Below, one piece after another: positions 7,033-42,708 of a DNA stretch of 64,000 nt. The position numbers and the translations under genes were made by a program. The notes beneath the pieces are model-generated. The model made no database searches. It was given only the letters and a program-made list of their open reading frames with translations, and had not been told where the DNA came from. The stretch is from positions 4,278,001 through 4,342,000 of the forward strand of contig NZ_CP041198.1 in assembly GCF_006517815.1 (NCBI RefSeq), in the 5' to 3' direction. Position 1 is the first letter of the stretch. Each line of letters begins with the position of its first letter. The stretch comes from Pseudarthrobacter sp. NIBRBAC000502770 (GTDB lineage: Bacteria; Actinomycetota; Actinomycetes; Actinomycetales; Micrococcaceae).

Positions 7033-8571
7033 TTAGTCACTGTAATCCGCTGCACCCGAGTTGGCCGGGAGCAGCGGCCTGCGCTCCGGACGGTTGCGGC
7101 GGTACACCTTGTAGGCAAAGGGCCAGAGCAGGATGAGGCCAATAATGACATAGATGCCGACGGCGATCGGCTCACCCATGAGCCCTGCCGGGTCGCCTGC
7201 GCTCAGCTGCAGGGTCTTGCGGAGCTGCCCTTCGATCCGCGGACCCAGGATCACGCCCAGGATCAGCGGCAGCACGGGAAGCCCGAAGCGCCGCATCATG
7301 AAGCCGAGTGCGCCCAGGACCAGCAGGATCACCAGGTCGAACGCCTGCAGGTTGACCGAGTAGGCGCCCAGCGTGGCGAAGAACAGGATGCCCGCGTACA
7401 GGTACGGGCGTGGCAGCTGCAGCAGCTTGGCCCACAGCGGTGCCAGCGGCAGGTTGATGATCAGGAGCAGCAGGTTGCCGATGAACAGGCTGGCGATCAA
7501 GGCCCACACCAGGGGCCCCTGGCTTTCGAAGAGCTGTGGACCCGGCTGGATCCCGTAGCTGGTGAAGGCGGCCAGCATCACGGCTGCGGTGGCATTCGTG
7601 GGCAGTCCCAGCGCCAGCATGGGGGTCAGCGTCCCGGCGGCCGCAGCGTTGTTGGCTGCTTCCGGACCGGCCACGCCTTCAATGGCGCCCTTGCCGAACT
7701 CTTCCGGGTGCTTGCTGAGGCGCTTTTCCGTCACGTAGGACAGGAACGTGGGGATCTCTGCGCCACCGGCTGGCAGGGCGCCGAACGGGAAGCCGAAGGC
7801 GGTGCCGCGCAGCCACGGCTTCCAGGACCGCTTCCAGTCGGACTTGCCCATCCAGGGCTGGCCCACCGGGATGGCGTGCAGGGGAGTGCGGCGCAGGTGT
7901 GCCGCCACCCAGAGGGCCTCGCCCACGGCGAAGATGGCCACGGCCACCACCACGATGTCCAGGCCGTCCGCAAGGAGCGGCTGGCCGAACGTCAGGCGGC
8001 GCTGGCCGGTGACGGAATCCATCCCTACCAGGCCGATGGCCAGGCCGAGGCCCAGGGAGGCGAATCCGCGCAGCCGGGACGAGCCGAGCACGGCGGTGAC
8101 GGCCAGGAGGGCCAGGACCATGATGGCGAAGTAGCTGGGGGCGCCCAGGCTGACGGCGAACTTCACCACGACCGGTGCGCAGACGGCCAGCAGGGCCGTG
8201 CCAATGGTGCCGGCCACGAACGAGCCGATTGCCGCCGTCGCCAGTGCCTGCGCCGCCCGGCCCGCCTTGGCCATCTTGTTGCCTTCGATGGCCGTGACCA
8301 CCGACGACGATTCACCAGGGGTGTTGAGCAGGATCGAGGTGGTGGAGCCGCCGTACATGCCGCCGTAGTAGATGCCGGCGAACATGATGAAGGCGCTGGT
8401 GGGTTCCAGGGCGTAGGTGACGGGGAGCAGCAGGGCCACGGTCATGGCCGGGCCCAGGCCCGGGAGGACGCCGACGGCGGTACCCAGGATGACGCCGATG
8501 ACGGCGTACAGGAAGTTCATGGGGGTGAGGGCGGTGCCGAAACCGTCCATCAGGGAGGACCAGACGTCCAT
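7033..8571 (-). CDS. tctA: Tripartite tricarboxylate transporter, large membrane subunit TctA
   Basis: Protein of 512 aa with about 11-12 membrane segments. The N-terminal half contains the family signature [17 protein letters not shown] near residue 40 and the [20 protein letters not shown] stretch near 65-85. The middle holds the second conserved loop [20 protein letters not shown], followed by [21 protein letters not shown]. It forms the channel for secondary uptake of carboxylates delivered by the TctC binding protein, with TctB as the small membrane subunit. The ATG directly abuts the tctB stop codon. The substrate (citrate or another di/tricarboxylate) is not decided by sequence. Confidence 0.95.
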
Positions 8572-31052: not shown

Positions 31053-31125
31053 GCCCCCATCGTCTAGCGGCCTAGGACACCGCCCTTTCACGGCGGCGGC
31101 ACGGGTTCGAATCCCGTTGGGGGTA
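31053..31125 (+). tRNA. tRNA-Glu (TTC)
   Basis: A 73-nt cloverleaf. The acceptor stem GCCCCCA pairs with TGGGGGT, the anticodon loop CTTTCAC sits in a CCGCC/GGCGG stem, and the T-loop is TTCGAAT. CCA is not encoded. It is the first of three tRNA genes in 360 bp; TATAGT about 90 bp upstream may be a promoter -10. Confidence 0.97.
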
Positions 31126-31215
31126 CGCAAGGAACTGGTCAAGCAGGCTAAAAAAGTCTGGTAGGCTGGAAGCCTTGAAAAAAGCGGTAGAGATACTGCA
31201 AAGCAAGAAACGCAA

Positions 31216-31289
31216 GGCCCTGTAGCGCAGTTGGTTAGCGCGCCGCCCTGTCACGGCGGAGGTCGCGGGTTCAAGTCCCGTCAGGGTCG
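31216..31289 (+). tRNA. tRNA-Asp (GTC)
   Basis: A 74-nt cloverleaf. The acceptor stem GGCCCTG pairs with CAGGGTC, the anticodon loop is CTGTCAC in a CCGCC/GGCGG stem, and the T-loop is TTCAAGT. The encoded 3' end lacks CCA. The spacer to tRNA-Glu is 90 bp. Confidence 0.97.
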
Positions 31290-31337
31290 CTCTGATTGTT
31301 GGAAGAAATTCCGGCTGTCATGGTGACTAGTCACCTA

Positions 31338-31413
31338 GGCTCTGTAGCTCAGTTGGTAGAGCGTTCGACTGAAAATCGAAAGGTCACCGGATCGACGCCG
31401 GTCGGAGCCACCA
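31338..31413 (+). tRNA. tRNA-Phe (GAA), CCA encoded
   Basis: A cloverleaf of 73 nt plus an encoded CCA at 31411-31413. The acceptor stem GGCTCTG pairs with CGGAGCC, the anticodon loop CTGAAAA sits in TTCGA/TCGAA, and the D-arm is GCTCAGTTGGTAGAGC. The T-loop reads ATCGACG, so position 54 is A instead of the nearly universal T. It is the only tRNA of the three with an encoded CCA and is followed by a terminator. Confidence 0.96.
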
Positions 31414-31418
31414 CTGGG

Positions 31419-31449
31419 AAGCATCAGTTCTTCGGAACTGGTGCTTTTC
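31419..31449 (+). terminator. Terminator of the tRNA cluster
   Basis: AGCATCAGTTC pairs with GAACTGGTGCT around a TTCG tetraloop, then TTTTCTGCTTT. It lies 6 bases after the tRNA-Phe CCA end and closes the Glu-Asp-Phe transcript. Confidence 0.88.
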
Positions 31450-31998
31450 TGCTTTAAGGCTCATCCGGTTTCCGGGCCCCATAACCCTCCAGCTTGGTCG
31501 CATACCCCTCTACCTTGTTCGCGGATCGCGACGCTGAGGGTCGTGGTACGCGCACAAGCTTCGGAGCTGGTGCGGGTATATGCGTTGGTCCCGTAAACGG
31601 GACAGCGGCGGGTCCCGCACTGTGTGGCGCAGGCAACATTCCGTCCGGCCTGGGAAAATTATTTGTCTGACTTTTGAAACATTTGACCTGCGCCAAACGG
31701 ATATGGCACGCGCGCGCATTGGTTGATGTAAGCGCTTGCACTCTACTCGCTGGTAACCCGTTTTGGCGTGTGAAACAGGGTTTGAACTGTCCGTTCCACC
31801 CCGTCTACGGTGGAGCGCGGCCGGAGGACAGCATGCTTTCCATCGGCCGGCCAGGCCCTACCCAGGCCTGCCTCCACCCGCAGCACAACGGCGTCCCCGA
31901 TGACGCCTGAGGTGTCGCCGGGGCCGCGGTTTGTTTCGGGATCATGGGCACACGCCCGCCTTCCACGAAATGTCACAACTCCGCGAGAAGAGCAAGAA
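31450..31998 (+). other. Intergenic leader upstream of levansucrase
   Basis: This 549-bp stretch has no convincing gene. The levansucrase frame stays open back to 31810 but lacks a signal-peptide-like start there. The region contains the LacI-type operator at 31727-31740, about 259 bp before the levansucrase ATG, implying either a long 5' untranslated leader or a promoter downstream of an upstream operator. GAGAAGAGCAAGAA at 31985-31998 contains the ribosome site. Confidence 0.6.
31727..31740. promoter_or_regulatory. LacI-family operator, levansucrase copy
   Basis: TGTAAGCGCTTGCA is a 14-bp near-palindrome with a central CG, the typical LacI-family half-site pair. The flanking TTGA makes TTGATGTAAGCGCTTGCA, which differs by one base from the site at 37905-37922 in the glucosidase/importer promoter. 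Confidence 0.75.
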
Positions 31999-33591
31999 AT
32001 GCACAAGCACCCCCAACCCCGGCTGCTGCGGTGGCGCACTGCGGCCGCAGCGCTGGCGGCGACCCTGGCCGCCTCGGCCTTCCTGGCCGTCCCCGCGGCC
32101 CAGGCCAATGAGCCCTCAGATCCGCCCGCCGTCCAGCAGATGCCTGCCCCCACGCCAGGCTTCCCCTTGCCGACGCAGCACACGCAGCAGGCCTTTGACC
32201 CGGCGTCGGACTTCACCTCCAAGTGGACCCGCGCAGACGCCAAGCAGATCATGGCGCAGAGCGACTCCACCGTCTCCCCGGGCGCAAACTCCATGAGCCC
32301 TGACGTCACCATGCCGGAGATCCCGCAGGACTTCCCCACCATGAATGACGACGTCTGGGTCTGGGACACCTGGTCCCTGACAGACGAAAACGCGAACCAG
32401 ATCAGCTACAAGGGGTGGGACGTCATCTTCTCCCTGGTCGCCGACCGGCACGCCGGATACGGCTTTGACCAGCGCCACTGGAACGCCCGGATCGGGTACT
32501 TCTTCCGCAAGACCAACGCTGATCCCGCCAAGGACAAGTGGAACTACGGCGGGCACCTGTTCCTGGACAACACGTCCATCGGAAACACCGAGTGGTCCGG
32601 TTCCACCCGCCTGATGCAGGGCAACCACGTGAACGTCTTCTATACCGCCACCACCTTCTACGATGTGGCGGAGCGGAACGCCGGCGGCGGCGGCATCGCC
32701 CCCGACGCCGTCATCGCCAAGGCGTTGGGAAACATCCACGCCGACCAGAACGGGGTTACCTTTGACGGGTTCGAGCACACCAAGCTGCTGGAACCGGACG
32801 GAAAGATGTACCAGACCAAGGCGCAGAACGCCGGCTTTGCGTTCCGGGACCCGTACACCTTCCAGGACCCGGCCCATCCCGGCAAGACCTACATGGTGTT
32901 CGAAGGCAACACCGCGGAAAACCGCGGCGACTACCAGTGCAAGGCCGAGGACCTGGGCTACCGCCCCGGGGACCCGCACGCAGAAAGCGTCACGGACGTC
33001 CAGAACAGCGGCGCGTTCTACCAGACGGCCAACGTTGGGCTGGCGGTCGCGGACAACAAGGATTTGACCAAGTGGTCCTTCCTCCCGCCCATCCTTTCCG
33101 GGAACTGCGTGAACGACCAGACCGAGCGCCCGCAGATCTTCATCCAGAATGAGAACGGCAAGAACAAGTACTACCTGTTCACCATCAGCCACCAGTTCAC
33201 CTACGCGGCAGGGATGCGCGGTCCCGACGGCGTGTACGGGTTCGTGGGCAACGGCATCCGTTCGGACTACCAGCCCATGAACTACAGCGGCCTGGCCCTC
33301 GGCTCGCCCACGGACCTGAACCTTCCGTCCGAGTCCCCGGAGGCGCCCACGCCGAACCAGAACGGGCGGCAGTTCCAGGCATACTCGCACTACGTGCAGC
33401 CCGGCGGCCTGGTGCAGTCCTTCATAGACAACGTCAACGGAGTCCGTGGCGGTTCCCTCTCGCCGACGGTAAAGATCAACTTCCGCGACGGCGTGTCCCA
33501 GGTGGACAGGACGTTCGGCCGGAACGGGCTGGGTCCGTTCGGCTACCTGCCCACCAACGTCAGGGTCGGCGGCGAAGGCCTTTACAAGTAG
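31999..33591 (+). CDS. Secreted levansucrase (GH68)
   Basis: Protein of 530 aa from ATG 31999. The signal peptide ends at AQA36 before Asn37. Catalytic triad of GH68: nucleophile Asp123 in VWVWDTWSLT, transition-state stabiliser Asp284 in FRDPYTFQD, and acid/base Glu376 in DQTERPQIF. It splits sucrose outside the cell, releasing glucose and building levan or fructo-oligosaccharides. The protein lacks a cell-wall anchor, so it should be free in the medium. LacI-type operator DNA upstream links it to the glucosidase/importer operon 4.5 kb away. An inulosucrase or fructosyltransferase with other linkage specificity cannot be excluded by sequence alone. Confidence 0.95.
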   Translation: MHKHPQPRLLRWRTAAAALAATLAASAFLAVPAAQANEPSDPPAVQQMPAPTPGFPLPTQHTQQAFDPASDFTSKWTRADAKQIMAQSDSTVSPGANSMSPDVTMPEIPQDFPTMNDDVWVWDTWSLTDENANQISYKGWDVIFSLVADRHAGYGFDQRHWNARIGYFFRKTNADPAKDKWNYGGHLFLDNTSIGNTEWSGSTRLMQGNHVNVFYTATTFYDVAERNAGGGGIAPDAVIAKALGNIHADQNGVTFDGFEHTKLLEPDGKMYQTKAQNAGFAFRDPYTFQDPAHPGKTYMVFEGNTAENRGDYQCKAEDLGYRPGDPHAESVTDVQNSGAFYQTANVGLAVADNKDLTKWSFLPPILSGNCVNDQTERPQIFIQNENGKNKYYLFTISHQFTYAAGMRGPDGVYGFVGNGIRSDYQPMNYSGLALGSPTDLNLPSESPEAPTPNQNGRQFQAYSHYVQPGGLVQSFIDNVNGVRGGSLSPTVKINFRDGVSQVDRTFGRNGLGPFGYLPTNVRVGGEGLYK

Positions 33592-33624
33592 GCCTGCCCA
33601 CCGCGGCAGCTTCAAGCAGTACGT

Positions 33625-33666
33625 GAACCAGGCGGGGAGTCCCACGGCTCCCCGCCTGGTTCCTTT
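33625..33666 (+). terminator. Terminator after levansucrase
   Basis: GAACCAGGCGGGGAG pairs perfectly with CTCCCCGCCTGGTTC around an 8-base loop, followed by CTTT, 33 bases after the stop codon. It separates levansucrase from the Asp23 operon. Confidence 0.8.
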
Positions 33667-33782
33667 GACCGCTTTCCTTCAACCACTCCTGGACCCGGTC
33701 CTGTGCGGTGGCGCCGACGGGTTTCCAGCCCATCTGTCGCAGCCTGGGGATAGGGTGGAACCAACAGAAGGGGGAGTGCCTG

Positions 33783-34232
33783 ATGGAATACCAGAACCCA
33801 CAACCCGTGGTGCCCAACCGTCCTGCCGCCAGCCCGGCTCCCGGTCCGGGCCGGACAGTTATTTCCGAGACCGCCGTGGCAAAGGTCGCGGGGATCGCTG
33901 CCCGTGCGGTTCCCGGCGTCTACTCACTGGGGTCGGGCCCGTCCCGTGCCCTGGGCGCCATCCGCGACGCCGTGGGAAGCTCCGACCACGCCGCGGGTGT
34001 CCACGCGGAAGTAGGCGAAACGCAGGTAGCCGTCGATATCACCCTGGTGGCCAGCTACGGAACGCCCCTGCATGCGCTGGCCAACAGCGTCCGTGCCGCC
34101 GTTTACCGGGCGGTCGAAGAACTGGTGGGTCTGCAGGTGATCGAGGTGAACGTCGAGATCACCGACGTCTATGTCCCACCCCCGGTCAAGACCGCAGCCC
34201 CGGCCGCTTCCGAACGGGAGGCGTTGCTGTGA
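33783..34232 (+). CDS. Asp23/Gls24-family envelope stress protein (first copy)
   Basis: Protein of 149 aa from ATG 33783 with AAGGGGGAG before it; upstream in-frame Met codons have no such site. After a Pro-rich N-terminus (about 25 residues) the Asp23 domain starts RTVISETAVAKVAGIAARAV, continues AVDITLVASYGTPLHAL and ends VIEVNVEITDVYVPP. Asp23 proteins form membrane-associated assemblies anchored by AmaP and respond to alkaline or cell-wall stress in Firmicutes. This is the first gene of a five-gene operon with each neighbour overlapping by 4 bp. Confidence 0.9.
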   Translation: MEYQNPQPVVPNRPAASPAPGPGRTVISETAVAKVAGIAARAVPGVYSLGSGPSRALGAIRDAVGSSDHAAGVHAEVGETQVAVDITLVASYGTPLHALANSVRAAVYRAVEELVGLQVIEVNVEITDVYVPPPVKTAAPAASEREALL

Positions 34233-34420
34233 ACCTCACCGTGGCAGGCACGGCCATAGGCGCATTCGTGGCGTTCATGTCGCTGCAGTTCGGTCTTTGG
34301 GGCTTCCTGGTTTCCCTTCTCTTCATGGCCATTGGGGCCCTCCTGGGCCGCGCCGCCGAAGGAAAGCTGGACCTGCGCGGCATTTTCGATGCCATCATCG
34401 GCCGGCGCTCGTCCTCATGA
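34229..34420 (+). CDS. Small membrane protein, DUF2273 type
   Basis: Protein of 63 aa from GTG 34229, overlapping the previous stop (GTGA). Two membrane segments are visible: VAGTAIGAFVAFMSLQFGLW with FLVSLLFMAIGALLG, then a short basic tail RAAEGKLDLRG. Size and position in an Asp23/AmaP operon match the DUF2273 small membrane proteins found there. Role unknown, probably a membrane partner of the Asp23 assembly. Confidence 0.8.
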   Translation: MNLTVAGTAIGAFVAFMSLQFGLWGFLVSLLFMAIGALLGRAAEGKLDLRGIFDAIIGRRSSS

Positions 34421-34797
34421 GTTCGCCCGCGCCCGTTGTGCGTGCGCAGGCGCTCAGCGGCCATAACCGGATTAGTACCCAGGCTTTGACCAGCCTTGCC
34501 AAAGCGGCGGCTGCGCAGGCGCTGGGCGTCGACGCCCAGGACATCCGTGCGGACTGGACGGACGACGACGGCCTGCTGGCTTTGTCCCTCGTCGCCCCCA
34601 TCAGCATCCCGCCGTTACAGGCGGTGGCAGCGGACCGGGCGCGAATCGGCATCGTTGGAGGTTCCATCTGGGACCGCACCGTGAAGGCCAAGGAAAGCAT
34701 CCTGGCGAAGGTGTCGGAACTCAGCGGTTCACAGGTGAGCCGGGTGGACATCCGCATCAGCGGGGCAAGGATCAGTACAGAAGGGCGGGTACGGTGA
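34417..34797 (+). CDS. Asp23/Gls24-related protein (second copy)
   Basis: Protein of 126 aa, ATG in a 4-bp overlap with the DUF2273 gene. It begins MSSPAPVVRAQALSGHNRIS and includes ALTSLAKAAAAQALGVDAQD and SQVSRVDIRISGARIS, a weaker match to the Asp23 fold than the first copy. In related actinobacterial operons a divergent second Asp23-like protein sits here. It may form mixed assemblies with the first protein. Cytosolic, no membrane segment. Confidence 0.78.
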   Translation: MSSPAPVVRAQALSGHNRISTQALTSLAKAAAAQALGVDAQDIRADWTDDDGLLALSLVAPISIPPLQAVAADRARIGIVGGSIWDRTVKAKESILAKVSELSGSQVSRVDIRISGARISTEGRVR

Positions 34798-35432
34798 GCA
34801 GCAGCGTGGAGAGCCGCCGGGCCGGCAGCGGGACCCGGAGAGGCAACGGCCCGGACATGGGCAGGGTGGTCTACCGCGAGACACATTCCGGCAGGGCCGT
34901 GGTGTCGGTTGTGGCCGCCATCCTGGTGTTGGTGCTGGCCGGTTATGGCGTCCTCGAATCCGGGGTTCACGCAGTGGGGCAGCCGGCGTGGCTGGTGGAG
35001 CCGCAAGTCGCTGCCCAGCGCATCGTGGACCTTCCCGCCGGGATACCCCCGCTGCTGTTGGCGGCAATCGGCGCCGTGCTCGCGATGCTGGGATTGATCT
35101 TCCTGCTTAGTGGGATCCTCCCAGGGAAACGCGCGCGCCACGTGCTGGCCGGCGCATCCGGGGAAGGGCTCCCTGCCGTGGTGGTGGACGACGAGGTCAT
35201 CGCATCCTCATTGGCCCGCCGCGCGCGCCTCGCCGCCAATGTCACCCCGGACCAGGTCATGGTGGTCGTCTCCCAGCGGCAGGTGCTGGTGAATGTCCGC
35301 CCTACCTCCGGCGTCCCGGTAAACCCGGAAAGGGTACTTGAGGCCGTCCGGGATGAGCTGGACCGGATGTTGCTGGAACCGGCACCCATCCCTCGCGTCA
35401 ACGTGGCGCCATCGGGGGTGATCGGGGCATGA
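34794..35432 (+). CDS. Membrane protein, DUF6286-like, of the Asp23 operon
   Basis: Protein of 212 aa from GTG 34794. Two membrane helices: about 37-56 (AVVSVVAAILVLVLAGYGVL) and about 82-105 (LLLAAIGAVLAMLGLIFLLS). They are separated by an extracytoplasmic loop. The C-terminal cytosolic part (about 115-210) has EVIASSLARRARLAANVTPD and VLVNVRPTSGVPVNPERV, resembling an Asp23-like or AmaP-like alpha/beta domain. The DUF number is from memory. Overlaps by 4 bp on both sides point to tight co-translation. Confidence 0.75.
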   Translation: MSSSVESRRAGSGTRRGNGPDMGRVVYRETHSGRAVVSVVAAILVLVLAGYGVLESGVHAVGQPAWLVEPQVAAQRIVDLPAGIPPLLLAAIGAVLAMLGLIFLLSGILPGKRARHVLAGASGEGLPAVVVDDEVIASSLARRARLAANVTPDQVMVVVSQRQVLVNVRPTSGVPVNPERVLEAVRDELDRMLLEPAPIPRVNVAPSGVIGA

Positions 35433-36040
35433 ACGGCACCCCGGCACTGCTCAACCGCATTTTGCTTACCGTGCTGGGCCTGCTCCTGCTGGGGGCCGGA
35501 CTCCTCCTGGTGCTGCTGGCCACCGTTCCCTCCTTGGGCGCCTGGTGGCACTCTTGGTCTTCCGGTGCCTGGGGCAGCATCAACCAGTTGTTCGATTCCA
35601 CCCGGTTCCCGGGCCGCCCGGAAAGCTGGTTGTGGATTGTGGTGGCGCTGGCGCTGCTGGCACTGATGGGGCTCATGGTGGCGTGGATCGCGCAGCAGGG
35701 AAAGGGCAAGTCAAACCTCCTGGCACTTGACTACGATCCCGGCGAGACTCCCGGCGACGTACGCATCGGTGGCGGGGTGGCAGAACAGGCCCTCCGGCAT
35801 GCCCTTGAAGGGCGCCCCGACCTCGCCGGTGCAACCGTCACCACCTACGAGGTCCAGGGAACGCCGGCCTTGAAGGTCCGGCTCCTGCCGCGCCAGGGCG
35901 TGGCCCCGCACCTGCTGGCCGCCGAGGTCACCGGCCTCGTGGACGCCCTGGAGGCCGTGGTGGGCAAGGAGTTTCCCGTCCTCATCCACATCGGCGCCGG
36001 GGCGCGGACACGCTTCAGCAGGGCTGAACGCGTCCGCTGA
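35429..36040 (+). CDS. amaP: AmaP-like membrane anchor of the Asp23 assembly
   Basis: Protein of 203 aa, ATG overlapping the preceding stop by 4 bp. N-terminal topology: TM1 about 10-31 (ILLTVLGLLLLGAGLLLVLL), an outside loop (WWHSWSSGAWG...), TM2 about 70-90 (WIVVALALLALMGLMVAWI), and then a cytosolic domain (about 105-200) ending in VLIHIGAGARTRFSRAERVR. Alkaline shock response membrane anchor proteins of this layout tether Asp23 to the membrane. Last gene of the operon; the convergent glucosidase gene ends 33 bp downstream. Confidence 0.83.
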   Translation: MNGTPALLNRILLTVLGLLLLGAGLLLVLLATVPSLGAWWHSWSSGAWGSINQLFDSTRFPGRPESWLWIVVALALLALMGLMVAWIAQQGKGKSNLLALDYDPGETPGDVRIGGGVAEQALRHALEGRPDLAGATVTTYEVQGTPALKVRLLPRQGVAPHLLAAEVTGLVDALEAVVGKEFPVLIHIGAGARTRFSRAERVR

Positions 36041-36073
36041 CATGCCGCCGGCGGGCGTCCAGGCGCGCTGCGG

Positions 36074-37882
36074 TTACCTGCCGCCCATGAGGTACACGGT
36101 GGTGTCCACGGGAACCTCCCGCATGCCGGTCCATTCTTCGGCCGGCTCGGGACCGCTGGACAGCACCACGGCCAACCCCTCGGGTAAGGGGGCGGAAGCG
36201 AATCCCATGTTGGACAGGACCGTGACGCCTCCATTCCGGAACGCCAGCAGGCCGCTGTCCGGCGCGTGTTCATCCGTCCACTCCACACTGCCGCGGCCCA
36301 GCTGTTGTGCCGCACGAAGGGACAGGGCTGCCCGGTACAGCTCAAGGGTTGAGCCTTCCTCGCCGTCTTGAAGGTCGGCGGCCAGGGGCCCGAAGCTTTC
36401 CGGTTGGGGGAGCCATGGCTCGCGTGCCTCGCCGGACAACTCACCGGAGAACCCGTACCCGGGTTGGTCCGCAGTCCATGGCAGCGGGACCCGGCAGCCG
36501 TCGCGCCCGATTTCGGCACCATGGGTCCGGAAGAATGTGGGGTCCTGCCTCGCCTCATCGGGAAGGGTGGTGTGCTCAGGCAGGCCCAGCTCCTCGCCCT
36601 GGTAAAGGTAGGCGGAGCCCGGCAGCGCCAGCGCAACCAGCGTGGCCGCGCGGGCCCGCGCCAGGCCCAGCGCCGGGTCGGGCTGCTCGTCGGCGGCCCC
36701 GATGCCCTTTGGGAACGTGGTGGGATCCTTGAGGCCGAACCGGGTGGTGTGCCGCACCGTGTCGTGGTTGCTGAGCACCCAGGTGGACGGAGCCCCCACG
36801 GATTCTGCCGCCGCCAGGGAGGCGTCGATGGCGTCAGCCATGCGTTCGGCATCCCAGCCTGCCAGGAGGAAGTCGAAGTTGAACGCCTGCTGCATTTCAT
36901 CCGGCCGGACATAGCGTGCCAGTCGCTCGGCCGGCTCCACCCATGCTTCAGCCACCATCATGCGGTCCCCGCCGTACTCCGCCAGGACTCGGTGCCAGTC
37001 CCGGTAGATGGCGTGGACGCCGTCCTGGTCGAAGAAAGGAGATGGCGGATACATGGGGGACACGGACCGGTGGGGTTCTTCGGCGTCGGTGTGGGCGTGG
37101 GGAGCGTCCCCGGGCAGATGGCTCTCCAGGCGGGGAGTGGAGGTTCCCTTCACCATGGCGGCAACACCGTCCCAGTCCGGAAGTCCTGCTTCCTTTACCA
37201 GGCCGTGGGCAACGTCCACCCGGAAGCCGTCGGCCCCGCGGTCCAGCCAGAAGCGCAGTACCGAACGCATCTCCTCCTGGACCTCCGGGTTGTCCCAGTT
37301 CAGGTCCGGTTGCTTGGTATCGAACAGATGGAGGTACCACTGGCCCGGCGAGCCGTCGGCCTCCTGCACCCGGCTCCAGGCCGGCCCGCCGAACACGGAT
37401 TTCCAGTTGTTGGGGGCCCGGCCACCGTCGCCGGATCCCGGGACCTCGTCCTTGCCGTCCCTGAACATGTACCGGTCCCGCGCAGGGCTTCCCGGGGGTG
37501 CCGCCAACGCCTCCCGGAACCAGGCATGCTCGTCAGAGGTGTGGTTCGGAACCAGGTCCACGATGACTTTCAGGCCGCGCCGGTGAGCTTCCTGCAACAT
37601 GGCGTCGAAATCTTCGAGGGAGCCGAAGAGCGGGTCGACCTGGCGGTAGTCGGCCACGTCGTATCCGCCGTCTGCCTGCGGCGACTTGTAGAACGGAGAG
37701 AGCCAGATGGCATCCACTCCAAGGGACTCCAGGTAGGAAAGACGGCCCGTGACGCCGCGGAGATCGCCCATGCCATCACCGTTACCATCCGCAAACGACC
37801 GGGGATAAATCTGGTAAACCACGGCGTCCGCCCACCATGCAGAAGGGGTTGGGCCCGGCACCGGAACGGCTGGATCGGTCAT
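36074..37882 (-). CDS. GH13 alpha-glucosidase (sucrose/oligosaccharide hydrolase)
   Basis: Protein of 602 aa, cytosolic (no signal peptide), starting MTDPAVPVPGPTPSAWWADA at ATG 37882 with AGAGGGGAACC before it. The GH13 barrel starts VVYQIYPRSFADGNGDGMGD. Catalytic residues: nucleophile Asp223 in GFRVDVAHG, acid Glu312 in MVAEAWVEP, and Asp374 in LSNHDTVRH. VDLVPNHTSDEH gives the first conserved region. It should split imported alpha-glucosides (sucrose, isomaltose or maltose type). It is divergent from the sugar-binding lipoprotein gene, with a LacI operator 27 bp before its ATG. The exact substrate is inference from the levansucrase link. Confidence 0.92.
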   Translation of the reverse strand: MTDPAVPVPGPTPSAWWADAVVYQIYPRSFADGNGDGMGDLRGVTGRLSYLESLGVDAIWLSPFYKSPQADGGYDVADYRQVDPLFGSLEDFDAMLQEAHRRGLKVIVDLVPNHTSDEHAWFREALAAPPGSPARDRYMFRDGKDEVPGSGDGGRAPNNWKSVFGGPAWSRVQEADGSPGQWYLHLFDTKQPDLNWDNPEVQEEMRSVLRFWLDRGADGFRVDVAHGLVKEAGLPDWDGVAAMVKGTSTPRLESHLPGDAPHAHTDAEEPHRSVSPMYPPSPFFDQDGVHAIYRDWHRVLAEYGGDRMMVAEAWVEPAERLARYVRPDEMQQAFNFDFLLAGWDAERMADAIDASLAAAESVGAPSTWVLSNHDTVRHTTRFGLKDPTTFPKGIGAADEQPDPALGLARARAATLVALALPGSAYLYQGEELGLPEHTTLPDEARQDPTFFRTHGAEIGRDGCRVPLPWTADQPGYGFSGELSGEAREPWLPQPESFGPLAADLQDGEEGSTLELYRAALSLRAAQQLGRGSVEWTDEHAPDSGLLAFRNGGVTVLSNMGFASAPLPEGLAVVLSSGPEPAEEWTGMREVPVDTTVYLMGGR

Positions 37883-37908
37883 TTGGTTCCCCTCTGATAA
37901 CTTTTTGA

Positions 37909-37922
37909 TGTAAACGCTTGCA
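37909..37922. promoter_or_regulatory. LacI-family operator in the divergent glucosidase/importer promoter
   Basis: TGTAAACGCTTGCA, with TTGA before it, matches the levansucrase operator in 17 of 18 bases (TTGATGTAARCGCTTGCA). It lies 27 bp upstream of the glucosidase start and 100 bp upstream of the binding-protein gene, well placed to repress both directions. Confidence 0.8.
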
Positions 37923-38021
37923 TTACCGACAGTCACCTTACTAGTGTGATGGTCACCACAACAACCTCACCTATAAGCGTTCTGTCGACTTACTTGTCAC
38001 TCAGCGAGGAGCTTCAAGCTA

Positions 38022-39317
38022 ATGAAAACCCCGAGATTCCTGCTTCCGGCTGCCACTGCCGGCATTCTGGCCCTGACGTTGTCCGCCTGTGGCGGTGGAG
38101 GTGGAGGGGGCACCACCGGGGGCGGCGGTGGAGGCGGTGACGCCAGCGCCAACCTCGACGGCCGCGGCCCCATCACTTACGTCCAGGGCAAAGACAACAG
38201 CAACGTGGTGCGCCCCCTGGTGGACAAGTGGAACGCGGCCCACCCGAACGAAAAAGTCACTTTCAAGGAACAGACCGACCAGGCCGACCAGCAGCATGAC
38301 GACCTTGTCCAGCACTTCCAGGCAAAGCAGTCGGATTACGACGTCGTGGATGTGGACGTCGTCTGGACCGCTGAATTCGCAGCCAAGGGCTGGCTGCAGC
38401 CGCTGAAGGACAAGATGGCGATCGACACGAGCGCCATGCTCAAGCCGACTGTGGACAGCGCAACCTACAAGGGCACCCTGTATGCGGCCCCGCAAACCTC
38501 GGACGGCGGCATCCTTTACTACCGGAAAGACCTGGTACCCACCCCTCCCAAGACCTGGGACGAGATGATGGGCATGTGCTCCATCGCCAAGCAGAACAAC
38601 ATCGGATGCTACGCGGGCCAGTTCAGCAAGTATGAGGGCCTCACGGTCAATGCGTCCGAGGCCATTAACTCCGCCGGCGGTTCCGTCCTGGACAAGGACG
38701 GCAAGCCCAACTTGAACACTGCCGAGGCCAAGGCCGGCCTGGGGAACCTGGCCAAGGCATACGCTGACGGCAACATTCCCAAGGAAGCCATAACGTACAA
38801 GGAAGAGGACAGCCGACAGGCGTTCCAGAGCGGTAAGCTCCTGTTCCTGCGCAACTGGCCCTACGCCTTCAACCTGATCACTACTGAAGGTTCGTCGGCC
38901 GTCAAGGACAAGACGGGGCTGGCTGCACTCCCGGGCAAGGATGGACCTGGGGCATCCTCACTCGGCGGCCACAACCTTGCCACCAGCGTGTACTCCAAGA
39001 ACAAGGCAACTGCCCTTGACTTCATGAAGTTCATGACCTCGGCGGAGACCGAGAAGTTCTACGCTACCCAGGGCTCGTTGGCTCCGGTTCTCGGATCGCT
39101 GTATGACGACCAGGAACTCGTTGCCAAGCTGCCCTACCTGCCGGTGCTGAAGACGTCCATCCAGAATGCCGTACCGCGTCCTGTGACGCCTTTCTACCCG
39201 GCTGTTACCAAGGCAATCCAAGACAACGCCTACTCCGCTATCAAGGGAGAAAAGACAGTGGACTCCGCACTCTCTGACATGCAGAAATCCATCGAATCCG
39301 CCGGTGCGGGATCGTAG
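38022..39317 (+). CDS. Sugar ABC transporter substrate-binding lipoprotein
   Basis: Protein of 431 aa. The lipobox LTLSAC places the lipidated Cys at residue 23, followed by two Gly runs separated by TT as a flexible tether. The mature part has family-1 (MalE-like) features: ITYVQGKDNSNVVRPLVDKW, QSDYDVVDVDVVWTAEFAA, and GGILYYRKDLVPTPPKTWDE. Four conserved elements fit trehalose/maltose/sucrose-type binding proteins. GAGGAGC precedes the ATG. It is the first gene of the importer operon, divergent from the glucosidase. Confidence 0.93.
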   Translation: MKTPRFLLPAATAGILALTLSACGGGGGGGTTGGGGGGGDASANLDGRGPITYVQGKDNSNVVRPLVDKWNAAHPNEKVTFKEQTDQADQQHDDLVQHFQAKQSDYDVVDVDVVWTAEFAAKGWLQPLKDKMAIDTSAMLKPTVDSATYKGTLYAAPQTSDGGILYYRKDLVPTPPKTWDEMMGMCSIAKQNNIGCYAGQFSKYEGLTVNASEAINSAGGSVLDKDGKPNLNTAEAKAGLGNLAKAYADGNIPKEAITYKEEDSRQAFQSGKLLFLRNWPYAFNLITTEGSSAVKDKTGLAALPGKDGPGASSLGGHNLATSVYSKNKATALDFMKFMTSAETEKFYATQGSLAPVLGSLYDDQELVAKLPYLPVLKTSIQNAVPRPVTPFYPAVTKAIQDNAYSAIKGEKTVDSALSDMQKSIESAGAGS

Positions 39318-39324
39318 TTCTGCC

Positions 39325-40362
39325 ATGGCAACCGAACTAGGCCCGACGCCGGTAAAGTCACCGGCGTCGGGCGGGACCCCCGTCCATCACGCGCCCAAGG
39401 GCGTAGGCGAGGACAACAGGATCGCCAGCCAGGGACGCTGGGCTTCCTGGCTGCTCGCCCCCACCATCATCGCCCTGGGCATCGTGATCGTCTACCCGAT
39501 CATCAGCGCCATCGTCATGTCGTTCCAGAAGGATGCCGGCCTTGATCCCGCCACCGGTCTGTTCACCGCAGGCGGCTCGGCAGGCATCCAGAACTACGTG
39601 AACTGGCTCGCGCAGCAATGCTCGTCACCGGACGGCGGAACTGTTGCCTGCCCGCCCGGCACCCTGGGCGGCCAGTTCTGGTCCGCCACCGCTACGACAT
39701 TCTTCTTCACCGTCGTCACGGTGGCATTCGAAACCGTTCTGGGTTTCTGGATGGCCATGATCATGGCCCGTGAATTCCGCGGCCGCAGCCTGGTCCGTGC
39801 AGCTGTCCTGGTGCCGTGGGCCATCCCCACCGCCGTGACGGCCAAGCTCTGGTTCTTCATCTTCGCCTTCGAGGGCATTGCCAACAAGCTGTTCAACACC
39901 ACCATCCTGTGGACGGGCAGCGAATGGCCGGCCAAGTGGGCCGTTGTCATCGCGGACGTTTGGAAGACCACGCCCTTCATGGCTCTGCTGATCCTGGCGG
40001 GCCTGCAGATGATTCCGGCGGAAGTATATGAAGCCGCCAAGGTGGACGGCGCCACTGCCTGGCAGCGGTTCCGCCTGATTACCCTGCCCTTGGTCAAGCC
40101 CGCGCTGATGGTGGCAGTCCTGTTCCGTACCCTGGATGCGCTTCGCATGTTCGACCTGCCGTACATCCTCACCGGCGGTGCCAACAACACCACCACCTTG
40201 TCCATCCTGGTGATCAACCAGATCAGGCAAGGCTTCAACGCGGCAGCTGCCCTGTCCACCATCACGTTCATCATCATCTTCCTGGTCGCCTTCATCTTTG
40301 TCCGCTTCCTTGGGGCAAACGTGGTTGAGCAGAGCGGCGCCACAGGAAAGGGGAAGAAATGA
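39325..40362 (+). CDS. Carbohydrate ABC transporter permease (MalF type)
   Basis: Protein of 345 aa from ATG 39325, 7 bp after the previous stop. After a 45-residue cytosolic N-terminus come six membrane segments, starting ASWLLAPTIIALGIVIVYPI. An extracytoplasmic loop with two Cys (QQCSSPDGGTVACPPGT) lies between TM1 and TM2. The EAA loop is EVYEAAKVDGATAWQRFRLI, where the importer ATPase docks. Weak ribosome site; translational coupling with the binding-protein gene is likely. Confidence 0.93.
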   Translation: MATELGPTPVKSPASGGTPVHHAPKGVGEDNRIASQGRWASWLLAPTIIALGIVIVYPIISAIVMSFQKDAGLDPATGLFTAGGSAGIQNYVNWLAQQCSSPDGGTVACPPGTLGGQFWSATATTFFFTVVTVAFETVLGFWMAMIMAREFRGRSLVRAAVLVPWAIPTAVTAKLWFFIFAFEGIANKLFNTTILWTGSEWPAKWAVVIADVWKTTPFMALLILAGLQMIPAEVYEAAKVDGATAWQRFRLITLPLVKPALMVAVLFRTLDALRMFDLPYILTGGANNTTTLSILVINQIRQGFNAAAALSTITFIIIFLVAFIFVRFLGANVVEQSGATGKGKK

Positions 40363-41258
40363 CCACGGCAACAGCAGACGCCTCGGCGTTGCGGGCCCGG
40401 CAGGACAAGGGCCGCAAGGCAGCCCAGAACCGGGAAAAGTGGGCACAGGGCAGGACCTACATCAGTGCGGTCATCGTGCTGCTTTGGTGCCTTGCCCCGG
40501 CCTACTGGATGGTGGTCACGGCGTTCCGTGAGGTGGGCTTCACCTACGACACCTCGATCCTCCCCACCCATGTCACCCTGGACAACTTCAAGACTGCCTT
40601 CGATACGTCCTTTGGCAACAGGTTCGGGCAGGCGCTGCTGAACAGTGTGTTCATCGGCGGCGTCGTGACGGTGGTGTCCCTGCTGATTGGTGTCTTCGCC
40701 GCGTACGCCCTGGCCCGCCTGAACTTCAAGGGCAAGTTCCTGGTCCTCGGCTTCATCCTGGGTGCCTCCATGTTCCCCGGCGTTGCCCTGATCACCCCGC
40801 TGTTCCAGCTGTTCACCAACATCGGCTGGATGGGTACGTACCAGGCGCTGATTATCCCGAACATCTCCTTCGTGCTCCCGTTGACGGTCTACACCATGAC
40901 CTCGTTCTTCCGGGAAATGCCGTGGGAGCTCGAGGAATCAGCCCGCGTGGACGGCTGCACCCAGGGGCAGGCGTTCCGCAAGGTCATCATGCCGCTCGCT
41001 GCTCCGGCAATCTTCACCACCGCAATCCTGGCCTTCATTTCCTCGTGGAATGAGTTCCTGATTGCCAGCCAGCTGTCCAGCGACGCAACGCAGCCGGTGA
41101 CGGTGGCCATCGCCAACTTCGCCGGTGCACAGCCCAACCAGATCCCGTACACGGCCATCATGGCCGCGGGCACCATCGTCACCATCCCGCTGGTGATCCT
41201 GGTGCTGGTCTTCCAGCGCAAGATCGTGGCCGGCCTGACGGCAGGTGCTGTTAAGTGA
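40359..41258 (+). CDS. Carbohydrate ABC transporter permease (MalG type)
   Basis: Protein of 299 aa, ATG overlapping the MalF-type stop by 4 bp. Six membrane segments start with TYISAVIVLLWCLAPAYWMV. The EAA loop ELEESARVDGCTQGQAFRKV is intact. WNEFLIASQLSSDATQPVTV near residue 230 is the usual MalG helix region. It pairs with the previous permease. No ATP-binding subunit is present in the operon. Confidence 0.94.
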   Translation: MTTATADASALRARQDKGRKAAQNREKWAQGRTYISAVIVLLWCLAPAYWMVVTAFREVGFTYDTSILPTHVTLDNFKTAFDTSFGNRFGQALLNSVFIGGVVTVVSLLIGVFAAYALARLNFKGKFLVLGFILGASMFPGVALITPLFQLFTNIGWMGTYQALIIPNISFVLPLTVYTMTSFFREMPWELEESARVDGCTQGQAFRKVIMPLAAPAIFTTAILAFISSWNEFLIASQLSSDATQPVTVAIANFAGAQPNQIPYTAIMAAGTIVTIPLVILVLVFQRKIVAGLTAGAVK

Positions 41259-41503
41259 TGGGCGCCAGTTCCCGCCCCCGGACCCCGGGGGCGGGAACCC
41301 GCAGCCGGTTGGTCCGCTCGGGTGAGGACTTCGACATCATCATCGGCTTCCTCGCATTCTGGGCGCTGGTCCTCCTGGTAGTCACTGTGTGGATGGAAGT
41401 TACAGCCCAACCCGCCCTTGGATGGGCGCTGGGCCTCCTGGCCAGCCTGCTGGCCCTGTACGGGATGGTGCGGCTGCGCCGGAAACTTCCAGCCCGACGA
41501 TAG
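41255..41503 (+). CDS. Small membrane protein in the sugar-importer operon
   Basis: An 82-aa protein starting at GTG 41255 (or ATG 41258, directly at the permease stop codon). Two membrane segments: IIIGFLAFWALVLLVVTVWM and GWALGLLASLLALYGMVRL, with a basic, Arg-rich N-terminus and C-terminus. No family recognised. Its overlap with the permease gene suggests it is translated with the transporter and could be an accessory membrane peptide; this is inference only. Confidence 0.65.
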   Translation: MMGASSRPRTPGAGTRSRLVRSGEDFDIIIGFLAFWALVLLVVTVWMEVTAQPALGWALGLLASLLALYGMVRLRRKLPARR

Positions 41504-41512
41504 TGAAGAAGG

Positions 41513-41527
41513 CACCGGTTACCGGTG
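41513..41527. promoter_or_regulatory. Perfect inverted repeat between importer operon and regulator gene
   Basis: CACCGGT-T-ACCGGTG is a 7-1-7 perfect palindrome 9 bp after the small membrane gene and about 130 bp before the LacI-type gene. It has no T-tract, so it is either an operator for a regulator or a weak processing/termination hairpin. It differs from the TGTAARCGCTTGCA operator. Confidence 0.35.
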
Positions 41528-41655
41528 GCTGTGACTTTGCACGCAGCCGCCGGTCCGGTTATCACTGCCCGTCCCCGGAATGGAAAAATACAAGGCCGGG
41601 GGTAAACGCAGGGCCAGCCGGCCCTACGCCGAAAAGGAGTTAAAAGGGGGACGCG

Positions 41656-42708
41656 GTGGCACGGACAACGGAAAGGTCCCAGCGGGGCGGCCATAACGGC
41701 GTCAGCATCGAAGACGTGGCCGCGGCCGCCGGAGTCTCCACAGCGACCGTCTCCCGCGCGGTCCGCGGACTGCCCCGGGTTTCCCCAGCCACCAGGGAGA
41801 AGATCCTGGAAGTGGCCGGAAACCTGGGCTACGTGGCCTCGTCCTCCGCTTCCGGACTGGCCACGGGTCGCACCAAAACCATTGGCGTCCTGGCCCCGTT
41901 CGTCAGCCGATGGTTCTTTTCAAAAGCAATCGAGGGCGCGGACCGCGAACTGCACGCCCGGCACTACAACCTCTCGCTCTTCAACCTTGGGGGCCACGGA
42001 AGCAACCGCGAGCGGCTCTTCAGCAAGACCATGGTGTACAAGCAGATCGATGCCCTGCTGGTGCTCTGCATGGCCCTCAGCCATGACGAGATCGAACACC
42101 TCCAGAAGATCGACATTCCCCTGGTAGTGGTGGGAGGGCACGTCGAGGAGTGCCCCTACATTGGCATCGACGATTACGCCGCCGCGTCCACCGCGGTCCG
42201 GCACCTGATCGACCTGGGGCACCGCGACATCGCCTTGCTGCACGGCGACGACGAGACAGACCTGAACTTCGACGTTCCCCGGGTCCGCATCCTGGCATTC
42301 AAGGACGTCATGGCCGCAGCCGGTCTGCCCACCCGGCCGGAATGGGACGAATGGGGCGATTTCACCGTGCGCAGTGGCCAGGAGGCCTTCCGCCGGCTGT
42401 GGTCGGGTCCGGGACAGAAGCCGACGGCTATCTTTTGCGCCTCGGACGAAATGGCCATGGGCGTCATTTTCGAAGCCAACCGCATAGGTGTCAGTGTGCC
42501 CGGCGACCTGTCCGTGGTGGGCATCGACAACCACGACTTCGCTGCCGCCATGGGCTTGACCACTGTGGGGCAGCGCCCGGACGAACAAGCCGAACTGGCG
42601 ACGAAGATGCTGCTGGATGAACTGGACGGCGAGGTCGGGGCTGTCCGCTCCGCAGTGGCGCCCCATGAACTCATCATCCGGCGCACCACAGCGCCTCCCA
42701 AGGGCTGA
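41656..42708 (+). CDS. LacI-family transcriptional regulator of the sugar regulon
   Basis: Protein of 350 aa from GTG 41656, with AAAAGGGGG before it. The LacI helix-turn-helix is near 18-40 (VSIEDVAAAAGVSTATVSRA), with the hinge region VSPATREKILEVAGNLGYV and the ASGLATGRTKTIGVLAP linker. The periplasmic-binding-protein-like sensor domain contains YIGIDDYAAASTAVRHLIDL and ICASDEMAMGVIFEANRIGV (with F before I). It ends VAPHELIIRRTTAPP. It follows the importer operon and is the natural candidate to bind the TGTAARCGCTTGCA sites at 31727 and 37909. Likely effector: sucrose or a derived sugar, by inference. Confidence 0.92.
   Translation: MARTTERSQRGGHNGVSIEDVAAAAGVSTATVSRAVRGLPRVSPATREKILEVAGNLGYVASSSASGLATGRTKTIGVLAPFVSRWFFSKAIEGADRELHARHYNLSLFNLGGHGSNRERLFSKTMVYKQIDALLVLCMALSHDEIEHLQKIDIPLVVVGGHVEECPYIGIDDYAAASTAVRHLIDLGHRDIALLHGDDETDLNFDVPRVRILAFKDVMAAAGLPTRPEWDEWGDFTVRSGQEAFRRLWSGPGQKPTAIFCASDEMAMGVIFEANRIGVSVPGDLSVVGIDNHDFAAAMGLTTVGQRPDEQAELATKMLLDELDGEVGAVRSAVAPHELIIRRTTAPPKG

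Follow-up and report, generated by a model that had tools for sequence, protein, structure and literature searches.

Levansucrase, whose family, GH68, acts on sucrose, is usually seen as a sucrose-response enzyme; in Bacillus subtilis its gene, sacB, is controlled by SacY antitermination and by DegU. MalR-type regulons, such as those of Streptomyces MalR and Actinoplanes AcrC, have a LacI-family regulator that adjoins a maltose-type ABC operon, with amylases among the targets. A Streptomyces lividans report gives CTTGCAG as the core half-site of MalR (PMC5526262), and a report on Arthrobacter globiformis describes a cyclic maltosyl-maltose (cmm) pathway with an intracellular alpha-glucosidase and a sugar ABC importer (PMC7676653). 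The 64 000-nucleotide stretch of DNA analysed here (the window, to which all coordinates refer), from a soil-dwelling Pseudarthrobacter of the Arthrobacter group, contains a levansucrase gene and an alpha-glucosidase/sugar ABC/lacI locus with a common LacI-type operator. As judged from sequence, the levansucrase most likely belongs to a small alpha-glucan (starch/maltose-type) regulon rather than to a sucrose/fructan system. We regard it as reasonably probable that the LacI-family regulator encoded at 41656–42708 governs a four-target alpha-glucan/alpha-glucoside regulon through the operator core TGTAARCGCTTGCA, with the levansucrase leader adding control. Among the matches listed in our literature search, which lay largely outside the subscription literature, no paper dealt with a regulator of an Arthrobacter levansucrase or with a natural riboswitch controlling levansucrase.

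The gene identities given in the initial annotation were borne out by profile and structure comparisons. The GH68 gene (31999–33591, + strand) matches PF02435 with 456 bits over positions 5–418 of 424, and its start codon is conserved among GH68 loci. The nearest solved chain is the levansucrase 1w18 (601 bits), with the beta-fructofuranosidases 3wpz (523 bits) and 3vsr (522 bits) also near; together with an N-terminus that is signal-like by eye, this predicts a secreted, sucrose-splitting, fructan-making enzyme. The GH13 gene (36074–37882, − strand; PF00128) is closest to the alpha-glucosidase chains 8yif and 8yie (509 bits), which we take to be CmmB-type enzymes. Divergent from it, all on the + strand, are a sugar ABC solute-binding lipoprotein (38022–39317; PF01547), two permeases (39304–40362 and 40359–41258; both PF00528), a small open reading frame that overlaps the end of permease 2 (41258–41503; membrane-protein-like by eye from its translation) and the LacI-family regulator (41656–42708), with the LacI helix–turn–helix PF00356 and the periplasmic-binding-like sensor domain PF13377. 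The nearest solved relative of the solute-binding protein is the trehalose/maltose-binding protein 1eu8 (202 bits). The regulator gene does stand at the end of the importer operon, as had been stated, but it is preceded by the 81-residue reading frame and a gap of ∼150 bp, so that a separate promoter is possible. Between the two arms lie envelope genes of the Asp23/AmaP type (33783–36040, + strand); the Asp23 part of this earlier assignment holds (PF03780), whereas AmaP gives only a weak match of 25 bits (cut-off, 55). This block has no exact core site of its own and was left out of the regulon members.

Near-identical operator copies had been noted upstream of the GH68 gene and in the divergent GH13/ABC promoter region, and both are found: the 18-mer TTGATGTAARCGCTTGCA is exact at 31723–31740 and 37905–37922 (+ strand; putative operator cores at 31727–31740 and 37909–37922), compared with 0.01 matches at up to three mismatches expected from shuffles. 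In a whole-genome search there was no other place within two mismatches, and the single third place at up to three lies within a ribosomal-protein gene (L10-like, from its translation). The 18-mer was rejected as the conserved unit, relatives keeping only its 14 bp core; the TTGA flank common to both window sites is not kept in relatives at the GH68 site. The core is an even palindrome with a central CG and is kept upstream of orthologous genes; its sequence is of a generic LacI type. It is rare in the 4.48 Mb genome, where it occurs exactly at four sites (control, 0), all of them adjoined by carbohydrate genes: levansucrase, alpha-glucosidase/ABC/lacI, a secreted alpha-amylase (whose neighbour is presumably MalQ) and beta-phosphoglucomutase/GH65, the last two sites being 97 and 137 kb away from that of levansucrase. 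The genome-wide search that the initial annotation had proposed thus yielded four exact core sites only, and not many unrelated genes.

Conservation across the genus strongly supports the proposal that levansucrase and the importer operon have a LacI-type operator in common. Of 140 other GH68 loci in the genus, 132 have the core upstream of GH68 with no more than a single mismatch, 131 of them at a near-fixed distance. In half of the 140 fetched loci (70) GH68 and the Asp23 block are linked; the other 70 have neither this block nor the lacI operon in the fetched stretch. A second site is present in every one of the 67 loci that have both Asp23 and the lacI orthologue, including five that lack the GH13 and importer genes, or have others in their place, but retain lacI and the site. 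The amylase and beta-phosphoglucomutase sites are each exact in 19 of 30 loci and missing in 11. At the ABC site, 63 of the 64 aligned loci (a set that includes the window; effective number 7) have TGTAAACGCTTGCA as the core and one has TGTAAGCGCTTGCA. Most GH68 sites read TGTAAGCGCTTGCA, TGTAAGCGCTTGCG or CGTAAGCGCTTGCA, mostly with G at the position that distinguishes them from TGTAAACGCTTGCA, and they tolerate CGTAAG.. and ..TTGCG ends.

The position of the operator relative to the predicted promoter differs between targets. At three of them it lies over the −35 or −10 region, as expected of a repressor site. The promoter of the ABC operon (37918–37947, + strand), placed by conservation in the 64 aligned loci, has a −35 hexamer TTGCAT (37918–37923) that overlaps the operator and, 18 bp further on, a −10 hexamer TAGTGT (37942–37947). 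A palindrome, TGTGATGGTCACCACA (37945–37960, + strand), presumably of the CRP/GlxR type, follows; it is the sole match at up to one mismatch in 64 kb, where 1.08 are expected by chance, and is mostly conserved in the alignment. Unlike these three targets, levansucrase has its operator ∼85 bp upstream of the predicted start. Its promoter is predicted at 31782–31811 (+ strand; −35 TTGAAC at 31782–31787, 18 bp, −10 TACGGT at 31806–31811) from TTTGAA and TAGCGT-type hexamers conserved across aligned GH68 upstream regions, TANNNT being the pattern of a −10 hexamer, and transcription would start near 31818. Further upstream is a second conserved box (31676–31717, + strand) with elements GAAACATTTGAC (31676–31687) and TGGCACGCGCGCGC (31704–31717); its weighted conservation was computed from an alignment of 131 upstream regions of GH68 (effective number, 43), and it is also kept in loci without the Asp23 block (e.g. 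L059, L079 and L092). From this arrangement we infer a mechanism in which the regulator would bind all four sites, namely those of its own operon, the secreted alpha-amylase, beta-phosphoglucomutase with the GH65 glycoside phosphorylase, and levansucrase. The first three would be repressed until an alpha-glucoside, e.g. maltose, appears; at levansucrase the regulator would act from a distance, either activating the promoter or blocking a factor on the second conserved box, and the leader would probably add control of translation or mRNA stability.

The levansucrase mRNA is predicted to begin with a structured non-coding leader of ∼180 nt (31818–31998, + strand), comprising a covarying hairpin (31852–31870) and a modelled core (31876–32001). 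Of 140 loci, 133 have the strongly conserved leader before GH68; the model was built in part from 31 of these 133. In a stricter scan of 198 genomes it was found in 116 of the 137 with GH68 and in none of the 61 without; the other 21 GH68 genomes gave no match. Rfam 15 returned no match to the leader in window positions 31400–38100 at E values up to 1, nor at gathering score in the leaders of nine relatives. The consensus energy is −100, against −62 ± 5 in 60 shuffles. When covariation was assessed on an alignment of 50 whole leaders, only five pairs and −1.15 kcal/mol were obtained; the sequences were then classed by eye, and the structure rests on 32 class 1 representatives (<84% identity) of the 50. 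One hairpin covaries strongly; the core helices vary too little to give more than a weak signal. Several candidate elements were rejected or lacked support. Helix P5, which would hide the ribosome site, is near-invariant in class 1, and in class 2 its 5′ arm changes without compensation; P6 (CGGAGU:ACUCCG) is 87.5% paired with no compensatory change. Covariation in the nested alternative GGCGUC:GACGCC plus CGACAC:GUGUCG is not above that of shuffles, and in the 12 sequences of class 2 the P1 hairpin, 94.8% paired, covaries weakly, with a score reached by 26 of 500 shuffles. At L229, a single locus from outside the genus, CUUUUCA:UGAAAAG can form at the place of P5. A conserved upstream peptide was also discarded. 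Although the window has a 25-codon frame with a favourable ribosome site (31833), just 13 of the 131 regions have an ATG in the corresponding alignment column, and the near relatives that retain it have the end of the frame at other positions. Nor does the leader appear to be an N-terminal coding extension from the ATG at 31900, a triplet that is ATG in 87 of 131 regions: lengths are spread evenly modulo 3, an in-frame stop falls within 33 codons in 56 of 131, and third-position bias is absent (0.165/0.218/0.210, against 0.146/0.102/0.333 in the gene).

A single repressor over all targets, as first proposed, is unproven because the core is generic, the genome encodes 21 LacI helix–turn–helix proteins and the levansucrase site lies upstream of the predicted promoter. 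Since at least two other LacI proteins (L017 and L022) also carry an ATVSR recognition helix, the GH68 site could instead serve another paralogue, the common core then being the family recognition sequence only. The difference between the GH68 and ABC site classes fits this alternative and, with the loss of the amylase and beta-phosphoglucomutase sites in some loci, counts against a single regulon; in two other genera, moreover, the LacI-type palindrome ahead of GH68 is another one, CCAAAACGTTTTGG or a sequence that differs from it by one change. We nevertheless consider a second regulator unlikely, roughly a minority case, since all four sites have the exact core, which recurs nowhere else in the genome, no lacI gene except 41656–42708 lies within 80 kb of any of these sites, and the palindromes found in the 600 bp before other lacI genes are different ones. 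A single close homologue of the regulator (E ≤ 1e-110) is present in 195 of 198 genomes of the genus, with or without GH68, and its co-occurrence with GH68 is therefore uninformative. The sucrose/fructan system of the initial annotation, in which sucrose would be the inducer, levansucrase would make extracellular fructan and the products would be imported, seems improbable. GH68 enzymes do use sucrose, and relatives of the solute-binding protein may bind several alpha-glucosides, sucrose among them, so the importer may take up sucrose alongside others and the GH13 enzyme might still split it. Against it stand the amylase and GH65 genes among the targets, a binding protein nearest to trehalose/maltose binders, a GH13 enzyme nearest to alpha-glucosidases and a regulator that scores 76.6 bits against the 389.55 cut-off of the sucrose/fructose repressor model TIGR02417 (D-fructose-responsive subfamily). 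Genes for a fructokinase, a fructose transporter, or a fructan or intracellular sucrose hydrolase were not seen next to any of the four exact sites, and in genomes without GH68 the site is still at the GH13/importer genes (three loci fetched: L029, L039 and L052). Least probable is a global carbon-control site of the CcpA type. CcpA can act from upstream cre sites, which we take the operator to resemble, and some homologues carry the submitter name catabolite control protein A; the regulator, however, reaches only 169 bits against the NCBIfam ccpA cut-off of 442, and four exact sites are few for such a role.

For the leader, a plainer explanation has close to an even chance: a conserved structured untranslated region that keeps translation or mRNA stability at a constant level, without any switching. 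It agrees with GAGAAGAG, likely the ribosome site, which is invariant immediately before the start codon in 50 of 50 aligned leaders, with the helices near that site, which show no compensatory change, and with the fact that no ligand is known. Near-invariant elements spanning ∼110 nt, and predicted pairings that exclude one another (a long hairpin against CGGAGU:ACUCCG), exceed what a ribosome site needs. More tentatively, the leader could be a new, possibly riboswitch-like class of cis-regulatory RNA that gates translation by means of alternative pairings near the ribosome site, with the starch-sugar LacI acting from about −85, perhaps as an activator, in a two-layer switch. If so, extracellular fructan synthesis would be tied to alpha-glucan feeding across the genus. 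Placing levansucrase in a genus-wide starch/maltose-type LacI regulon makes a testable prediction on the timing of fructan production; the leader itself is a candidate new RNA family, tied to a single gene, for which a covariance model and over 100 natural variants are available, and it may matter for the production of fructan and fructo-oligosaccharides.

Compared with the systems described above, levansucrase here resembles sacB of B. subtilis in its predicted control at both the transcriptional and the leader-RNA level. It has, however, a site of the LacI type, and its leader is longer, of another kind and without a match among Rfam families. As in the cmm pathway, which belongs to the same bacterial group, a sugar ABC importer accompanies an alpha-glucosidase; among solved structures, by contrast, the present binding protein is most closely related to trehalose/maltose binders. 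As in MalR-type regulons, the LacI-family regulator adjoins a maltose-type ABC operon and has an amylase among its putative targets, both assigned by similarity only, and CTTGCA in the core resembles the S. lividans half-site, with T, C or A as the next base at the four sites instead of G. The locus departs from that pattern in its gene order, with lacI behind the importer genes instead of head to head, in having a single even palindrome as operator and in counting levansucrase among the predicted targets.

The 18-mer TTGATGTAARCGCTTGCA is matched exactly at 31723-31740 and 37905-37922; the initial annotation had placed it, with one base of difference, in the levansucrase and GH13/importer promoter regions. 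Allowing up to three mismatches, shuffled sequences gave 0.01 matches, and the sole other place in the 4.48-Mb genome lies within a ribosomal-protein gene. The generalized 14-bp core (31727-31740 and 37909-37922 at these two sites), TGYAANCGNTTRCA, was found at exactly four places in the whole genome and the reversed control pattern at none; one mismatch in TGYAARCGYTTRCA added a single genomic place, with six matches per strand for the control. The expected gene content was also recovered. The GH68 enzyme (31999-33591, plus strand; 456 bits) has a signal-like N-terminus, and an Asp23/AmaP-type block separates it from a minus-strand GH13 α-glucosidase, beyond which the importer operon (38022-42708) runs from a solute-binding protein through two permeases and a small ORF to a LacI-family regulator. 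The best solved relatives of the GH13 protein are α-glucosidases and those of the binding protein are trehalose/maltose binders. The third core site lies upstream of a 1026-residue GH13 α-amylase with a signal-like N-terminus, adjoined by a malQ-like gene (both identified from the translation; amylase models also match the former). The fourth precedes the gene for a β-phosphoglucomutase-family protein; next to this is a GH65 protein, to which kojibiose and maltose phosphorylases come closest among solved structures. Judged by homology, the four putative targets form a small, coherent α-glucan set plus levansucrase.

At the importer operon, the operator overlaps a predicted -35 element (37918-37923), with the -10 element (37942-37947) 18 bp further on; this layout is conserved across an alignment of 64 loci that counts the window (effective number 7). 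At the β-phosphoglucomutase and amylase genes the operator runs into TACACT or TACAGT, which we take as the -10 element. Relative to these predicted promoters, the operators at all three places would occupy repressor positions. The conserved hexamers of the levansucrase gene, TTGAAC (31782-31787) and TACGGT (31806-31811), are also spaced by 18 bp and would place the core of its operator roughly between -91 and -78 relative to the predicted start. A second conserved box (31676-31717; ACATTTGAC...TGGCACGCGCGCGC) lies beside this operator on its upstream side and is retained also in loci that lack the Asp23 block. A LacI-family protein bound at this operator may activate, or may block a factor bound to the box. 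Immediately before the levansucrase promoter region lie genes for tRNA-Glu, tRNA-Asp and tRNA-Phe (31053-31413). CRP/GlxR-like palindromes accompany two of the operators: one at 37945-37960 beside the importer operator, with one mismatch (the sole match at this level in 64 kb, 1.08 expected by chance), and an exact one beside the amylase operator (8442-8457 of the amylase locus L198; the sole match in 20 kb, 0.39 expected). Any significance of these palindromes would derive from position and conservation alone.

GH68 is present in 137 of the 198 genomes of the genus. The site was surveyed at 140 places besides the window, leaving out three loci with GH68 as two matches. When the 700 bp upstream were searched and the best match kept, the core was found in 132 of the 140 loci, without mismatch in 67 and with one in 65. 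The distance to the residue-70 anchor is 459-501 bp for 131 of these sites and 700 bp for that of L093. At GH68, relatives conserve the core and not the four extra bases that extend the likeness of the two window sites to 18 bases. Among the eight loci without a site, L082 and L089 are cut by contig ends, L066 is the second gene of a tandem GH68 pair with the site at the first, and the expected place in L058 holds a three-mismatch version only; in L078, L095, L180 and L197 the GH68 identity is 81, 50, 75 and 38%, respectively. Linkage of GH68 to the Asp23 block is seen in 70 loci. Of these, 67 carry a lacI orthologue, the stretch or contig stopping first in the remaining three, and each of the 67 shows, apart from the GH68 site, another copy of the core with no more than one mismatch. 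The other 70 show no Asp23 block within the fetched stretch, some being cut by contig ends, and most keep the site.

Of the 198 genomes, 195 have one close homologue of lacI (E <= 1e-110), GH68-less genomes among them, and the names of close LacI homologues suggest that the organism belongs to the Arthrobacter group. In the three GH68-less genomes with the site fetched (L029, L039 and L052), GH13 and the binding protein flank the site. In five Asp23-linked loci (L060, L063, L067, L073 and L100), lacI and the site are kept, a search at 60% identity recovered neither GH13 nor the binding protein, and the permeases, with 23-33% identity, are those of a different ABC transporter; the L063 binding protein is distantly AcbH-like. 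In the 500 bp that precede the match, the amylase site is exact in 19 of 30 loci and absent in 11, and the β-phosphoglucomutase site gives the same counts; the loci are the best 30 of 39 and of 61 positive genomes, respectively, so that the samples lean to near relatives.

A near-invariant leader (~31818 to 31998) precedes the levansucrase ATG (31999), which is most likely the start and which, counting the window, all but one of 131 aligned regions retain (130 of 131). The leader is non-coding: its lengths favour no value modulo 3, it lacks codon periodicity, and a stop in frame interrupts it within 33 codons in 56 of 131 regions. Its conservation exceeds the need of a ribosome site. The consensus fold of all 50 representatives has five pairs (-1.15 kcal/mol); that of the 32 assigned by eye to class 1 reaches -100.3 kcal/mol versus -62.5 ± 5.1 (minimum -76.4) in 60 column shuffles, and the window leader alone gives z = -2.8 against 200 shuffles. 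The hairpin at 31852-31870 shows strong covariation (two-sided changes 28 versus 6.5 in shuffles; score 0.431 versus 0.157, reached by 0 of 500 shuffles). The core fold (31876-31998) is a prediction: 93% of cells are paired and six of 500 shuffles reach its covariation score, variation being too low for a strong signal. No covariation support was found for alternative leader pairings, and that for the class-2 hairpin is weak.

A covariance model of the leader core (31876-32001), whose training set was the window plus 31 loci out of the 140 (matches by construction), detects one strong place in its own genome, with a weak opposite-strand match there. The leader lies just before GH68 in 133 of 140 loci (81/83 and 52/57; E <= 0.01), the misses being L078, L082, L089, L095, L180, L186 and L197; 22 of 103 match rows in the 83-locus scan come, with weaker scores, from the strand opposite the leader. 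It also precedes each split GH68 gene of L202, L203 and L204. With E <= 1e-4 and stricter filters, the leader was found in 116 of 198 genomes, all within the 137 with GH68, of which 21 gave no match; none of the 61 GH68-less genomes matched. The rows compared lay solely before GH68, on the opposite strand there or at contig ends. No Rfam family matches the leader. GH68 occurs in 25 of 245 sampled family genomes, 12 of them from this genus, and the model found no match in 12 GH68 loci outside it. Two other genera contribute seven loci (L211-L217) in which the GH68 upstream region bears a different LacI-type palindrome, CCAAAACGTTTTGG; by eye, five copies are exact and two carry one change. At L229 the operator is related, with two mismatches, and the leader has diverged.

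We consider it probable, from these sequence comparisons, that the LacI-family protein of the window governs a four-target α-glucan/α-glucoside regulon that includes levansucrase. The levansucrase site could instead belong to a LacI paralogue, the core being merely common to the family; the genome encodes 21 LacI helix-turn-helix domains, so paralogues could share it. The two site classes differ at one core position, the importer core being TGTAAACGCTTGCA, with A, in 63 of 64 loci and the corresponding base at GH68 mostly G, which weakens the four-target explanation and strengthens the paralogue one, which we nevertheless regard as unlikely. The sucrose/fructan system first envisaged does not fit the α-glucan targets, the trehalose/maltose-type binder or the regulator, which passed no cut-off among the NCBIfam models listed and lies far from those of the sucrose/fructose repressor and CcpA models. 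Sucrose could be one of the α-glucosides of the regulon. Streptomyces MalR is reported to bind CTTGCAG repeats (PMC5526262), which resemble the CTTGCA half-site of this operator. Given this half-site, the relatives of the GH13 and binding proteins and the failed sucrose/fructose and CcpA models, the regulon is read as a putative MalR-like α-glucan/α-glucoside type into which levansucrase has been taken.
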